Shown here one piece after another: positions 17,710 through 23,044 of a stretch of 51,692 nucleotides of DNA (its first letter is position 1; each line of letters opens with the position of its first letter). The stretch covers positions 1 to 51,692 of IMG/VR virus record IMGVR_UViG_3300005529_001122, one strand, 5' to 3'. The notes under the pieces were generated by a model. It was not told the origin of the DNA. It saw only the letters and a program-made list of their open reading frames with translations, and ran no database searches. This stretch comes from a virus. Made by a program: the position numbers and the translations under genes.

Positions 17710-20700
17710 TCACGTTCCTCGCATCCCCAGGCGCACTGCGCGTGCAAGATCGGCGGCGACCTGGGTGCGGCTTGCCTGGAACGCGGATGGGCTTGGCGTC
17801 TGGATCGTGACGTTGATCACCGGCGCCGCCATCGGGCCGCGCGCGCCGTAGCCTCGTGCCTCGTCGCGGTTGAGCACCCGCTCGCCGCGCTGCAAGATCG
17901 CCGGCACTTCATCCGGTGAGAGGAATGCACCGTCGTGGAAGCGGGGCGCATGGCGGAACACGGCCGCCGGAACGACCGCCGGTGTGCCGTCCTGGCCCAC
18001 GACACCGCCCTCGTGGAATTTGAGGCCTGCGAACAGGCTGCCAAAGAGGCCGCCGACATTGCCGAGCGTAGTGAGGTTTGTTCCGAACAGGAAGTTCTTG
18101 AGCGGATTGAGCACCGCAAGCTTGAGGATTTCCTTTTCGATATCGACAAGCGCCGCGCGTCCGGCATCGGCCCACGATTTCCAGTCCATCTTGCCCTCGG
18201 CAATGAGGGTCGCGAAGCGATTGAAGGTCGTATCCGTCATGCCCTGCAAGGACTGCATCGCGCCTTGCGAGCGGGCGAGCGACTGGTTGAGGCGTTCGAT
18301 GTTGGCGGCATTGGCGAGGATCGCCTGGCCTTCGGCGCTGGCGAGGTCGATACCCTTCTGGCGGAGCTGCTGCTCCGCCTGAAGCTGAGCGATGATGATC
18401 GCCCGCTGCGATTCCCCTATGCCCGCAAGATCGATCTGCTTCTGCAGCAGCTCGACCTGGTTCCTCTGGCCCTCCAGGGTCTGCAGGGCCGCGGCACGGG
18501 CCTGCTCACCGTGAAGCCGTGAATAAGCGCCGCGCAGTGCGTCGATGACGCGGCCGAGCGTGCTTTTCGCATCGCCCTCCGCGAGCGATTGCGCGACGAT
18601 CAGCGGGCGCAGCGCCTGCTCGACCTGCATCTGCCGCTGCGCCTGCTCGGTCGAGAGCCCGCCGGCGAAGACGGCGTCGTTGAGTCGCCGCTGCGCGGCC
18701 GACTCGGCGCCAAGGTCGTTGACGGATTTGGCCGATTGCGCCGCCTGCTCGGCGATCTGTTCCCGGAGCAAGTCGCGGGCCCGGGTGTCGACGTCGACGC
18801 CGTTCTGCACCGCCTCGGTCAGCGCCTTGCGCCGGGCTTCCGCCTGCTGGGCGGCGGCGGCACCCTTCAGCCAGGCTTCGGCGAGGCCAATGGTCGCCTT
18901 GGTGTTGACGTCGAGGACGCGCGCCTGGTCGATCAGCGCCTGCGTTGCCTCGGCGCGCGCCTTGGTGCCGGCACGCGTGATGTCGGCCTCGGCGATTGCG
19001 ACCGGAATCGCCTGGCCGGCGAGTTCGACCCGCCGCCGCTCTTCGGCAATGGCCGCCTTCTGGGCCGGGGTCTTGGCGGCGAGCGCCTGGATTTCGAGTT
19101 CGTCGAGACGGCGGGCCTTATCGGCCGGATCGAGCCAGGTCAGGATCGCCCGCGTCACCGCGTCATAGGCGGTCTCGACCTGCTTGAGGTCGGCGACCTT
19201 CTGCTTCGCCAGCGGGTCATCGAGCGCGGTGCGAATCTGCGCCTCGCGGGCCTTCAGCGATTGCAGTTCCTCGAAGCCCGGCGTCAGCTCGCGCGCCACC
19301 GTGCCGGCGCGCACCGACAGCTCATTGGCCTTCGCCTCCTTGGCGCGAACCTGGATGATATCGAGCTTTGCCTCGATCTTGGTAATCTCGGCATCGACCT
19401 CCGTCAGCATCCGCGTGTTGAAATTGCGTGCCTGCGCGGCAAAACGCGTCGGCGGGTTCGCGATCAGCGCCTGCAGGCGCGCGCGTTCCTGCTGAAGCTC
19501 TTTGAGCCGCTCCTCAATCGGGGCGCCGTCCAACACGCGCGAAATCGCCCGGCCGAGCGCGTCGTAGGCATTCGACGCCATCCGCCCGACGAAATCCCAG
19601 GCGCGGCCGAGCGCCGTGGTCGCATCGGCCGCGTTGACGAGGCTGCCCTTGAGGGCGTCGAGCAGGACCCGCTGCGCGGCGGTGCGGTCGTTATGGTCGG
19701 CAAGCGTGCGGACGTACTGGCGCGTCCTGTCGTCGAGGAAGTTGAGCTTGGCATTGAGCGCATCGGCACCCTTGATCGGATCGGCAAACGCTCCCGCCAG
19801 CTCTTTCGCCGCGGTTGCAACGTCGGTGCCGGTGGTCGCGGCGTAGTTCTTCGCGACCTTGATCAGGCCATCGAAATTCGAGACCGCAATCCTGCCGGTT
19901 TGCAGGAACGCCGCCTCCATTTCGCGCGCGGCCGCGACCGAGACCTTGCCGGCCGAGGCCGATTGCTCGGCGATGCGCTCGACCTGACCGACGGTGGCTC
20001 CGGCGGCTCGGCCGGTGCCCCCGAGCGCGACCTCGAGTTCCTTCTGCGACTCGATGTAGCGGTAATAGGAGTAGCCGACCGCAGCGCCGATTGCCGCGAT
20101 GCCGGCGACCACCGCCATCGTCGGCGTGATCAGGCCCGTCAGGCCCTGCCAGACTCCTTTCAGGAGCCCACCGAGTCCACCTTCGCCCAAGGCGGCAGAG
20201 GCCTTGATGCCCTCGACGGTCAGAACCCGCATCGGGCTTTGGCCCGAAATGAGCGCGTCGACCGTATGCCGCGCGGCCGACCCCAGGACCAGGACCTGGT
20301 TCGTGCTGAGCGCCGCGCTACCACCATACTTCTCGATGACGCTGGCGGCTTCCCTGTAGCGGCTGTTGGCGAGCGCGACCGCCGCCGCATGCTCCGCCTG
20401 CGTGATTGCGCCTACCTTGAACAGCGAGCCGGCTTCCGCGACGTCGGTGTTGAGTTTCTTTTGCGCCGTCCCAAGCGGATCGATCTGCGCGCGCAGCGCC
20501 GAGGTTCGCGCTTCCAGGTCCTCTGCGGCCCTAGCGGTTTCCTCGAACACCGCAGCCGACTCGCGCGCCGACTTGGGCTGCGCCGTGCCAACGCCCAGAA
20601 CCTGGTTGAAACTGCGCTGCGACTGGTCGGCGGCGCCAGCCTGTCGTGCGGCCTCCGCCAGCCGCTGAAGGCGCTGGGCCTGGCGATCGGTGGCGGCGCC

Positions 20701-20829
20701 CGTTGCATCCATATCGGCTGCAACACCACGGAACGCATCCTGCCCGGCCTTGCCGACCTCTTCGAAGGCGCGCTTGACGTCGGCCTTGCCCTCGACGCCG
20801 AGACGGATCGAAACCTGAGTCGTGCTCAT
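17710..20829 (-). CDS. Tail tape-measure protein
   Basis: The 1039-residue protein starts with the typical self-association region (VSIRLGVEGKADVKRAFEEV), followed by long Ala-rich coiled coils to about residue 200. A hydrophobic segment near 227-250 comes next, then a further helical body with repeated Gln/Glu/Arg heptads. The C-terminus shows the tape-measure ending (WKSWADAGRAALVDIEKEI, GTNLTTLGNVGGLFGSLFAGL, and the GERVLNRDEAR-like tail). It sets tail length and forms a channel through the membrane during DNA delivery. The ATG touches the stop of the GT chaperone frame directly, as in lambda where T and H are adjacent. Confidence 0.88.
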   Translation of the reverse strand: MSTTQVSIRLGVEGKADVKRAFEEVGKAGQDAFRGVAADMDATGAATDRQAQRLQRLAEAARQAGAADQSQRSFNQVLGVGTAQPKSARESAAVFEETARAAEDLEARTSALRAQIDPLGTAQKKLNTDVAEAGSLFKVGAITQAEHAAAVALANSRYREAASVIEKYGGSAALSTNQVLVLGSAARHTVDALISGQSPMRVLTVEGIKASAALGEGGLGGLLKGVWQGLTGLITPTMAVVAGIAAIGAAVGYSYYRYIESQKELEVALGGTGRAAGATVGQVERIAEQSASAGKVSVAAAREMEAAFLQTGRIAVSNFDGLIKVAKNYAATTGTDVATAAKELAGAFADPIKGADALNAKLNFLDDRTRQYVRTLADHNDRTAAQRVLLDALKGSLVNAADATTALGRAWDFVGRMASNAYDALGRAISRVLDGAPIEERLKELQQERARLQALIANPPTRFAAQARNFNTRMLTEVDAEITKIEAKLDIIQVRAKEAKANELSVRAGTVARELTPGFEELQSLKAREAQIRTALDDPLAKQKVADLKQVETAYDAVTRAILTWLDPADKARRLDELEIQALAAKTPAQKAAIAEERRRVELAGQAIPVAIAEADITRAGTKARAEATQALIDQARVLDVNTKATIGLAEAWLKGAAAAQQAEARRKALTEAVQNGVDVDTRARDLLREQIAEQAAQSAKSVNDLGAESAAQRRLNDAVFAGGLSTEQAQRQMQVEQALRPLIVAQSLAEGDAKSTLGRVIDALRGAYSRLHGEQARAAALQTLEGQRNQVELLQKQIDLAGIGESQRAIIIAQLQAEQQLRQKGIDLASAEGQAILANAANIERLNQSLARSQGAMQSLQGMTDTTFNRFATLIAEGKMDWKSWADAGRAALVDIEKEILKLAVLNPLKNFLFGTNLTTLGNVGGLFGSLFAGLKFHEGGVVGQDGTPAVVPAAVFRHAPRFHDGAFLSPDEVPAILQRGERVLNRDEARGYGARGPMAAPVINVTIQTPSPSAFQASRTQVAADLARAVRLGMRGT

Positions 20830-21542
20830 CTATTCGTTGTTCCGGCCGTAAGCGCGAACGATGATCGGCTCAACCTCGGGAAGGAGTTCAACGAGCAGCG
20901 TGTTGAGCGCGCCCATGGCGTCTGCGAGCAGCAGCACCGCGGCGAAATCGAGCGCGTAGACGCCGCCCATGACGGCACGAACCTGTCCGGCCGCGCGCTT
21001 GAGCACGGCCCAGGCCGCAATGCCGTCCGGCGTTTGTGGCGCGTGTTCGAGGTAGGGGCAGGCGGGGCAGGTTTCGGGGCAAACGGCGCAATAGCCCTCG
21101 CCCCCGCCGAAGTGCCATTCGGCGAGAGCGGTCAGACGTTTTTTTCCGCGTCCTGGATCAGCGCGGGGCCGACATAGAGGCGATCGATCGCGTCGAACAC
21201 GGGCCAGTGCTCAAGCGCCGCATCGATCGTTTCCTTGGTCGGCTCGACCGGATTGCCGTCGGCGTCGCCGATGCCTTCCCAGGCGGCGATTCCGGAATGC
21301 GCGAGCGAGCGCGTGAAAGCGACGCCCGCTTTCACCATCGCGTCGTCGCCACCGGCGCGCAGCACGTCGGCGGCAGCCGTGCGTGCGATCAGGATTGCGG
21401 CGACGCTGATCGGTCGGAACTGAGCCCGCACGCCTGCAACGAGATTGAGCCAATATGGCTCGCGGCCTGCGGTGAGCTTGAGCATCGGGGCTTTCGAACG
21501 GGAAGTGTCGTGCGATGACGGCTTGGTTTTGACCTTGGTCAT
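20830..21542 (-). CDS. Tail assembly chaperone GT fusion made by -1 frameshift
   Basis: The second frame, from the slippery site at 21138-21144 to TAG 20830-20832, has no good own start but keeps codon use typical of the phage. It reads on as RLTALAEWHFGGGEGY. A -1 shift joins it to the upstream G frame, giving about 136 plus 100 residues. The T part carries C-x2-C-x3-C-x2-C (CAVCPETCPAC), a zinc-knuckle-like cluster, followed by a helical end (AVLLLADAMGALNTLLVELL). G/GT pairs chaperone the tape measure during tail assembly in lambda-like phages. The GT stop abuts the tape-measure ATG. The shift itself is predicted, not observed. Confidence 0.72.
21132..21542 (-). CDS. Tail assembly chaperone G (unshifted product)
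   Basis: The 136-residue zero-frame product starts at ATG 21542, with AAGGGG about 8 bases upstream, and ends at TGA 21132-21134 just after the slippery run. It is helical and acidic toward the end (VFDAIDRLYVGPALIQDAEKNV). It sits between the tail tube and the tape measure, the classic chaperone place. A start 11 codons earlier overlaps the tail-tube gene and lacks a ribosome site, so was not chosen. Sequence similarity to a named chaperone family is not obvious by eye; identity follows from position, size and frameshift layout. Confidence 0.7.
   Translation of the reverse strand: MTKVKTKPSSHDTSRSKAPMLKLTAGREPYWLNLVAGVRAQFRPISVAAILIARTAAADVLRAGGDDAMVKAGVAFTRSLAHSGIAAWEGIGDADGNPVEPTKETIDAALEHWPVFDAIDRLYVGPALIQDAEKNV
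21138..21144 (-). promoter_or_regulatory. A AAA AAC slippery heptamer for -1 frameshifting
   Basis: On the - strand, the zero-frame codons GAA AAA AAC GTC TGA contain the heptamer A AAA AAC, the canonical X XXY YYZ type. Both tRNAs can re-pair after a one-base slip, entering the T frame at CGT CTG ACC. The zero-frame stop lies only one codon after the heptamer. No stimulatory hairpin was folded here, though the downstream bases are GC-rich. Confidence 0.72.
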
Positions 21543-21558: not shown

Positions 21559-22500
21559 TCAGTAAGCAGCAACATCGTTGATCAGCACCGCGGTGCAGGT
21601 CTTGTGCAGTGTCGGGTCCTTGGCGGCCTGCCAGGCGAAGGTCGCCTGGATGCCGCCAGGACCCTGGATCGGTGTCTTGGGCTTCGGCAGGAACGCACTG
21701 TGGATCGTGAACAGCAGTGACTTGTCGGCGTCGATCGCCCAGCCAAACGACAGCTCGCACGGATCGCCAGACGTGGCCTGATCGAGCAGCACGGTGTCGG
21801 CAAACCGCACGTTGACGCTGCCGGTCACGGCGACCATCGCCGGATCGGCGTCCTCGATGCGGCCATCGGGACGAATGACCTCGACCTTGTCGAGATTGTT
21901 GGCGTAAGTGAGTTCGGCCGAGACGATATGACCGAGTGCGGTTCCGTTGCGCTTGATCTCGCCCATGAACTGGGAGAAGCGCTCGATCACTGCCTCGCTG
22001 GGCGAGCCGGCAGCCGACGAGGTCGCTTTCGTCTCGCCCTGCGCGATCAGGCTCATAGTGGCGTTGAGCAGGCCCGACCGCTGCAGCTGGATTTTCATGG
22101 TGTTGGCGCGGACGCCGACGTTCATGCCGAAGCTTGGCACCTCCGGCATGCCGATCTCGATCGCCATGGAGGGAAGGGTCAGGGCGCCAGACACGAAGGT
22201 GTGGGTGTGGACGCCCGAGTTGTCGACCGAGGTCGGCGCGCCCATGAGGAGCTTGAGCCAATAGCCGAAATTGCGCAGGTCGACCGGAACAACGGCATCG
22301 CCGTCGTTGTTCACCACGTCGCGGCTCGGCGGCAGCGGTTCGCGGCCGTAGCCGAGGAGGTCGCTCGCAATCAGGTTCTGCTCGTCGCCAAGCGCCGAGG
22401 AGACGAACGGCAGTTTCTTGAAGCCCGAGACCGGCGCCGTGCCGTAGGTGGTCTCGAATGCCGCAGCCATGACGGCGTTGGCACCTCTGGCACGAGCCAT
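21559..22500 (-). CDS. Major tail tube protein
   Basis: The 313-residue product has the tail-tube pattern: an N-terminal GANAVMAAAFETTYGTAP segment, alternating beta strands with Gly turns, and a central FVSGALTLPSMAIEIGMP block. It corresponds to lambda V by position, between the terminator protein and the G/GT chaperone. A roughly 40-base spacer separates it from the HNH gene upstream. Copies stack as hexameric rings around the tape measure. Family membership (phage tail tube, alphaproteobacterial type) is judged from sequence character and context; the start ATG 22500 is preceded by AAAGGAGAGG. Confidence 0.8.
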   Translation of the reverse strand: MARARGANAVMAAAFETTYGTAPVSGFKKLPFVSSALGDEQNLIASDLLGYGREPLPPSRDVVNNDGDAVVPVDLRNFGYWLKLLMGAPTSVDNSGVHTHTFVSGALTLPSMAIEIGMPEVPSFGMNVGVRANTMKIQLQRSGLLNATMSLIAQGETKATSSAAGSPSEAVIERFSQFMGEIKRNGTALGHIVSAELTYANNLDKVEVIRPDGRIEDADPAMVAVTGSVNVRFADTVLLDQATSGDPCELSFGWAIDADKSLLFTIHSAFLPKPKTPIQGPGGIQATFAWQAAKDPTLHKTCTAVLINDVAAY

Positions 22501-22540: not shown

Positions 22541-23044
22541 TCACGCGGCCCGCGCGAACTCACCGAAGTGTTTCGTGGCGGCGGCGATGTAAGCCGCATG
22601 CGCCCGCTCGGCGGATCGAAATCTGCCGAGATGAACGGCGCAGCCGCCCACAACGATCTTTGCGCGCCAAAGACCGGTCTGACGGCAGAAAGAAACGCCT
22701 TTGTATCCCGAGGAATTCGTCGCAAATCGGCGGGAATTCTGCATGTTCTGCGATGTCGTCGCGGGCCTCAAATTTCCAATTCTGTTGTCGTCCGGGTTCC
22801 CGTTCGCGTGATCGAGCTTGCCGCTCGGCCAGACACCGTGGACAAGAAGCCAAGCCAATTGGTGTGCTTGATAGCGGCAACCGTCGATCGCGATCCGGCG
22901 ATGGCCACTGCGTGAAATGGACCCAGCGAGCTCGCCGGTGTTCGTCCGGCTGTTGGGCCTCTTGCGCCAACGAAACGCTCCGGACTCCGGGTTGTAGTCC
23001 AGCAGCTCGCGCAGCCTGGCGAGGGTGATCGCCGAGCGTGCCAT
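22541..23044 (-). CDS. HNH endonuclease with AP2-like DNA-binding domain
   Basis: Residues about 60-95 of this 167-residue protein hold the HNH core, with the KLDHANGNPDDNRIGNLRP pattern (His79, Asn81, Asn87, Asn91). Residues about 112-164 form an AP2/ERF-like DNA-binding domain (SGYKGVSF, WRAKI, HLGRF, AERAHAAYIAAATKHFGEF). This HNH-AP2 pairing is typical of free-standing homing endonucleases. It interrupts the tail genes between the terminator and tail-tube proteins, as expected for a selfish gene inserted between structural genes. The target site and activity are unknown. Confidence 0.85.
   Translation of the reverse strand: MARSAITLARLRELLDYNPESGAFRWRKRPNSRTNTGELAGSISRSGHRRIAIDGCRYQAHQLAWLLVHGVWPSGKLDHANGNPDDNRIGNLRPATTSQNMQNSRRFATNSSGYKGVSFCRQTGLWRAKIVVGGCAVHLGRFRSAERAHAAYIAAATKHFGEFARAA

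Follow-up and report, generated by a model that had tools for sequence, protein, structure and literature searches.

A probable lambda-type -1 frameshift joins tail chaperones G and T in a phage group whose T part carries a conserved four-cysteine module

How does a phage translate a reading frame that follows its tail chaperone gene G and ends exactly where the tape-measure gene begins, and what kind of protein does that frame encode? We analysed such a locus in a virus record of 51,692 bases (hereafter, the window). All genes of the locus lie on the minus strand, with the following features.

21559..22500 (-): tail tube protein gene, Phage_tube_2 (E 6e-59), upstream of G
21132..21542 (-): G, tail assembly chaperone, 136 aa, from ATG at 21542 to TGA at 21134-21132
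21144-21138 (-): slippery heptamer A AAA AAC, in the phase xxA AAA AAC, fit for tandem -1 slippage
20830..21138 (-): T part in the -1 frame, 102 codons plus the stop TAG at 20832-20830
21099..21130 (-): hairpin of 13 bp with loop TGGCAC, 7 nt past the heptamer; probable frameshift stimulator
21058..21090 (-): C-x2-C-x3-C-x2-C cluster, T residues 17-27; probable metal site
20845..20973 (-): DUF7697/phrog_11212 core, T residues 56-98; weakly DUF1799-like
17710..20829 (-): tape-measure protein gene, TMP_2 (E 2e-38), starting one base past the T stop

The gene order, tail tube then G/T then tape measure, is the lambda-type layout. After the heptamer come GTC and then TGA, so that the slip site sits one codon ahead of the G stop, and the T stop abuts the tape-measure ATG at 20829 without a gap. 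A preliminary description of this DNA had noted the heptamer, the exact junction with the tape measure and the cysteine cluster, and had read the locus as a -1 frameshift joining G and T. All three features are present where it placed them, and conservation of the heptamer, the second frame and the cysteines supports its reading. We consider it highly probable that the locus encodes a lambda-type G/GT pair of tail assembly chaperones expressed by programmed -1 ribosomal frameshifting. A second in-frame ATG for G lies upstream, at 21575, and in most relatives G starts at a Met that matches residue 20 of the window G (MLKL; conserved start, alignment A4). Upstream of the tail-tube gene there is also, in the midst of the tail genes, an HNH endonuclease gene with an AP2 domain (22541-23044, minus strand), likely a homing endonuclease.

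As a string, AAAAAAC is unremarkable, with 3 matches in the window against 1.83 expected. What is notable is its phase and its place: in 12 other window genes, comprising 5771 codon positions, in-phase AAAAAAC was found at none, and an in-phase XXXYYYZ of any kind at only 7. AAAAAAC was present in all of the 80 viral relatives examined (the best 80 of 163 IMG/VR relatives of T, comprising 68 distinct T sequences). Among 43 loci from bacterial genomes, by title nearly all alphaproteobacteria, 35 had AAAAAAC and 8 had GGGAAAC. When loci were pooled, every one of 156, which are not independent of one another, carried a heptamer near the 3′ end of G (AAAAAAC in 141, GGGAAAC in 14 and AAAAAAA in one), and the heptamer ended in C in 155. 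Three loci with truncated or over-long T frames (L159, L162, L163) were removed before this tally, and 12 loci from a search with the DUF7697 model, described below, entered it after their heptamer had been seen. Exchange between AAAAAAC and GGGAAAC preserves the XXXYYYZ rule although the encoded residues differ. Chance occurrence of the heptamer and second frame was rejected on the grounds of this conservation, of selection in the T frame (below) and of the rarity of in-phase heptamers in window genes.

Two records, apparently from one genome, have A8 instead of A7 (L078, near 2501, and L131, near 3001), so that G and T share a reading frame; A7 is found at a further locus (L129) of that genome. 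Either a homopolymer error or a genuine, fixed fusion could account for the A8, and the two records count against the frameshift reading. In many clades (L051, L144, L149 and others), the G frame stays open for 20-38 codons beyond the heptamer and overlaps the coding sequence for the N-terminal, WHFG-Cys4 half of T, a stretch that is thus read in two frames. The heptamers themselves also weigh against frameshifting: according to the portion of the source available to us, the efficient slip class in E. coli is V_VVA_AAR, E. coli ribosomes are less tolerant of re-pairing from AAC to AAA, and both A_AAA_AAC and G_GGA_AAC fall outside the most efficient E. coli motifs (PMC4066793). A weak heptamer combined with a hairpin could set a low share of GT.

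The second frame behaves as a protein-coding frame with no beginning of its own. Its preceding stop lies at 21213, and there is no ATG, GTG or TTG from there to the heptamer; the N-terminal half of T in the window therefore lacks its own start. In 51 distinct relatives whose 0 frame stops one codon past the heptamer, pN/pS in the T frame was 0.06 over codons 1-13, 0.25 over codons 14-43 and 0.22 over codons 44-60, compared with 1.6 or more in both other frames (1.6-1.7 over T codons 14-43). Purifying selection on T is confined to the shifted frame, and we conclude that the second frame encodes a real protein.

A stem with as many as 14 pairs and the loop TGGCAC begins 6-7 nt past the heptamer, and the 13-bp hairpin of the window has a folding energy of -28.5 kcal/mol (55 nt folded). 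The preliminary description makes no mention of this hairpin. Among 79 distinct sequences, 1048 of 1106 cells were paired, compared with 476-643 when partners were slid. Because part of this pairing follows from the protein sequence, we used synonymous recoding. Across 29 representatives, recoding gave a Stouffer z of -5.84 at the hairpin, compared with +3.49, +4.59, +3.49, +1.37 and -0.51 in five control stretches of T; taken singly, 8 of the 29 reached p<=0.05 and 5 had z>0. Two-sided changes in 27 representatives numbered 20 cells versus 9.5 ± 2.3 in shuffles, with 0 of 500 shuffles as high, and the covariation score was 0.251 versus 0.178. However, a control slid by +1 exceeded the structure in two-sided changes (23 versus 20 cells, 9 versus 6 pairs), and the RNAalifold consensus of the 27 was weak (6 pairs only, -2.3 kcal/mol). 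Two loci with a two-residue insertion (L197, L199) were folded but excluded from the alignment (A3). The hairpin is kept beyond codon need, and we are fairly confident that it is a real but lineage-variable frameshift stimulator. An upstream Shine-Dalgarno-like stimulator was not conserved (an AGGA, GGAG or GAGG core in 6 of 29 representatives), and a pseudoknot between the loop and downstream sequence was unconvincing, with a best complement of 5.5 nt versus 4.9 in shuffles. Rfam gave nothing credible at E<=1, and a promoter and terminator scan gave nothing relevant. Over T codons 8-47 of the 29 representatives, codon choice past the hairpin favours less RNA structure than is seen in synonymous recodings (z up to +4.6).

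Could the stem pairing be a by-product, arising because the WHFGGG protein sequence is conserved and the codons are GC-rich, and play no part in slippage? Synonymous nulls do fold, at about -19.5 versus -23.3 kcal/mol observed; several lineages (L069, L160, L164, L171, L204) show no excess, and the Methylobacterium-like L170, L171 and L173 are predicted to fold a different, later stem. Still, the combined recoding excess is absent from all five control stretches, two-sided changes are well above their shuffled number, and one locus (L202) has WAW for WHF yet keeps a stem at the same place, so we regard a by-product as unlikely. The position of the constrained hairpin, 6-7 nt past the heptamer, also suits a stimulator acting on ribosomes, since such structures generally begin 5-8 nt downstream of the slip site, as stated in the available part of PMC4066793. 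It speaks against the idea that T is made through RNA polymerase slippage on the A7 run instead of ribosomal frameshifting. That idea draws on the A7 in the window and most relatives and on the A8 in one phage, but it would have to accommodate the 14 of 156 loci with GGGAAAC, which contains no long homopolymer, and we hold it to be very improbable. More improbable still is a T gene that stands alone and has its own start, or one whose translation is coupled to that of G. GenBank lists T of Nostoc phage Nsp-JY21 from an internal ATG, and in 34 of the 80 viral relatives a start codon in the T frame lies somewhere between the heptamer and the previous stop upstream, which counts against frameshifting; the other 46, however, have none, a start between the heptamer and the first Cys was found in 0 of 80, and internal starts would leave out the WHFG-Cys4 half, which is the most conserved part of T. 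The Nsp-JY21 record starts T at residue 41 (locus base 2121), past all four Cys, and shows that annotation can drop the Cys4 half.

Ribosomal frameshifting thus remains our preferred reading. Most ribosomes would end after G, and the smaller share, held up by the hairpin 7 nt further on, would slip as both tRNAs re-pair from A AAA AAC to AAA AAA, entering the T frame and producing GT. Following the lambda model, G would coat the tape-measure protein together with the G part of GT, T would recruit the tail-tube protein, the tube would polymerise to the measured length, and G and GT would then depart from the tail. For lambda itself, the section of PMC5009743 that we could consult states that G, and GT through its G part, bind the tape measure, that T binds the tube protein, that both leave the finished tail and that the two products are made in a 30:1 ratio, citing Levin 1993 and Xu 2004, 2013 and 2014. 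For the phage studied here, the sequences establish the anatomy of the locus, its conservation, selection on the second frame and constraint on the hairpin; slippage in cells, its rate, zinc binding and the partners of G and T we infer.

In kinship, G appears to be a chaperone. It matched phrog_313 ("Tail assembly chaperone") with E 5.6e-7 and had no match to a Pfam TAC family; phrog_313 matched 21 of 21 G members. Its predicted model (pLDDT 87.6) aligned with 3fgx (Z 6.8, rmsd 4.4, 85 aligned) and with HK97 chaperone structure 2ob9 (Z 5.7, rmsd 5.5 over 96 residues), both with modest Z, ahead of a further match at Z 3.0; Foldseek alone gave no significant match for G in the PDB. T, in contrast, matched DUF7697 (PF24752) with 47.8 bits, above the cut-off of 27, and DUF7697 and phrog_11212 each matched 21 of 21 T members, although both models span only the C-terminal half. 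DUF1799 (PF08809) remained below its cut-off (15.7 versus 26 bits), with E<=0.1 in 15 of the 21. In the genome of Caulobacter vibrioides, used as a control, DUF7697 likewise scored above its cut-off and DUF1799 below its own. For the T model (pLDDT 91.5), the best BFVD matches included proteins named "Tape measure chaperone", from Enterobacter phage F20 (prob 0.94, E 0.17) as well as from other phages. Against solved structures, T gave no sequence match, no significant Foldseek match in the PDB and no useful VIA-align row, and a search of NCBIfam returned nothing relevant. T looks like a DUF1799-like core with an added WHFG-Cys4 head.

Frameshifting of the lambda type is textbook biology, and the locus shares with lambda G/GT its gene order, a -1 slip near the end of G, a T frame ending at the tape-measure start and the presumed roles of G and GT. 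The two differ in slip site (GGGAAAG in lambda, A AAA AAC in the window) and downstream structure, the first 50 nt in lambda folding at just -7.3 kcal/mol. They differ also in T: homology to lambda T was rejected, as the window T had no match to Phage_tail_T (PF06223) at E<=1, whereas lambda T itself scored 54.1 bits. The lambda G/T layout named in the preliminary description holds, with the refinement that T belongs by sequence to DUF7697 and carries Cys4, and is not, like lambda T, a Phage_tail_T protein without Cys.

Direct relatives, with the same T family, are the RcC phages of Rhodobacter capsulatus (RcKemmy and 10 others). RcKemmy has a joined "tail assembly chaperone" CDS, the Cys4 motif and a hairpin, but its heptamer, unlike that of the window, is G GGA AAC; the span of the joined CDS fits a slip there. 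The portion of PMC8601537 that we consulted reports a chaperone frameshift in most RcC phages, and that portion mentions neither the cysteines nor the hairpin. Because frameshifted chaperones are already annotated in these relatives, the locus is of a known kind and not a new system. Nor is a heptamer ending in AAC unique to the group. AAAAAAC occurs at the chaperone gene end in Acinetobacter phages Loki and IME_AB3, where a frameshift has been proposed (PMC5313236, consulted in part), and in the T1-like phage F20 (Phage_TAC_4 and DUF1799), which shares A AAA AAC at the end of G and a T gene adjoining the tape measure. In F20, TAA directly follows the heptamer, and there is no Cys downstream of it. 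F20 T scored 55.6 bits against DUF1799 (E 6.5e-15), compared with 15.7 bits for the window T, and hhalign of the T profile against F20 T was weak (E 6e-4, prob 29%, 45 columns); the T core is possibly a distant relative of DUF1799. In GenBank, F20 T is annotated with a separate GTG start that precedes the slip site (L209:30627-31028), despite the in-phase A AAA AAC at the G stop, and F20 G/T is probably an unannotated frameshift.

The C-x2-C-x3-C-x2-C motif was found in 80 of the best 80 of 163 viral relatives and in 42 of the 43 bacterial-genome loci, the exception being cut by a contig end, and at least four Cys lay within the first 65 residues of T in all 156 (non-independent) loci. T parts obtained with distant seeds, 33-49% identical to the seeds (close seed relatives aside), also had at least four Cys, with changed spacings; the arrangements seen were C-x2-C-x3-C-x2-C, C-x2-C-x6-C-x12-C and C-x2-C-x6-C-x7-C. 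Because some search peptides contained the Cys motif, we also searched with the DUF7697 model, which does not include the Cys half. In 385 alphaproteobacterial genomes it found 16 loci, of which 14 combined an AAAAAAC or GGGAAAC heptamer with four or more Cys. The exceptions were a sub-threshold match in an unrelated-looking frame (L203) and a broken-looking locus without a heptamer (L200); the latter, with broken G/T frames beside an ORF that we take to be transposase-like, is a decaying prophage. Lambda T lacks Cys altogether and HK97 T lacks a CxxC pair, in keeping with the earlier remark that the cluster is foreign to lambda T.

Since at least four Cys are retained though their spacing varies, we favour a metal site, with structural zinc binding as the most likely, though putative, role of the Cys4 head. 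The motif alone cannot discriminate between zinc binding and disulfides or a redox switch, and the AF2 model contains no metal; yet variable spacing suits a metal site with variable loops, and phage tail assembly takes place in the cytoplasm, so that disulfides or redox switching, while plausible, are the less likely use of the four Cys. More speculatively, the WHFG-Cys4 head might be a metal- or redox-sensitive gate through which GT would pass the tail-tube subunit to the tape measure only when the Cys4 site is loaded. We think this doubtful; if true, tail assembly in this phage group would hinge on the zinc or redox state of the cell. To our knowledge, no lambda-type chaperone has such a layer of zinc or redox control.

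The literature that we searched, which included few subscription papers, contained no mention of DUF7697 that we could find, and in the passages retrieved from it for tail assembly chaperones, mentions of zinc or CxxC concern other genes. As far as that search reaches, the conserved Cys4 module, the hairpin and the identity of DUF7697 are new. DUF7697 and phrog_11212, both listed as of "unknown function", would thereby acquire a function, as the C-terminal half of a frameshifted tail chaperone, and a large class of T domains with a candidate metal site is defined. The relatives also form a natural series, with two heptamer types, a covarying hairpin and many alphaproteobacterial hosts, in which one can ask how bacteria other than E. 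coli use slippage on an A-site AAC, E. coli being less tolerant of it according to the accessible part of PMC4066793. Of 50,697 phage records, the window T found 14 and the T of a distant member found 15. One T that is 78% identical to that of the window (L139) lies on a 3.4-kb contig binned as Phycisphaerae, an assignment that is probably a binning error.
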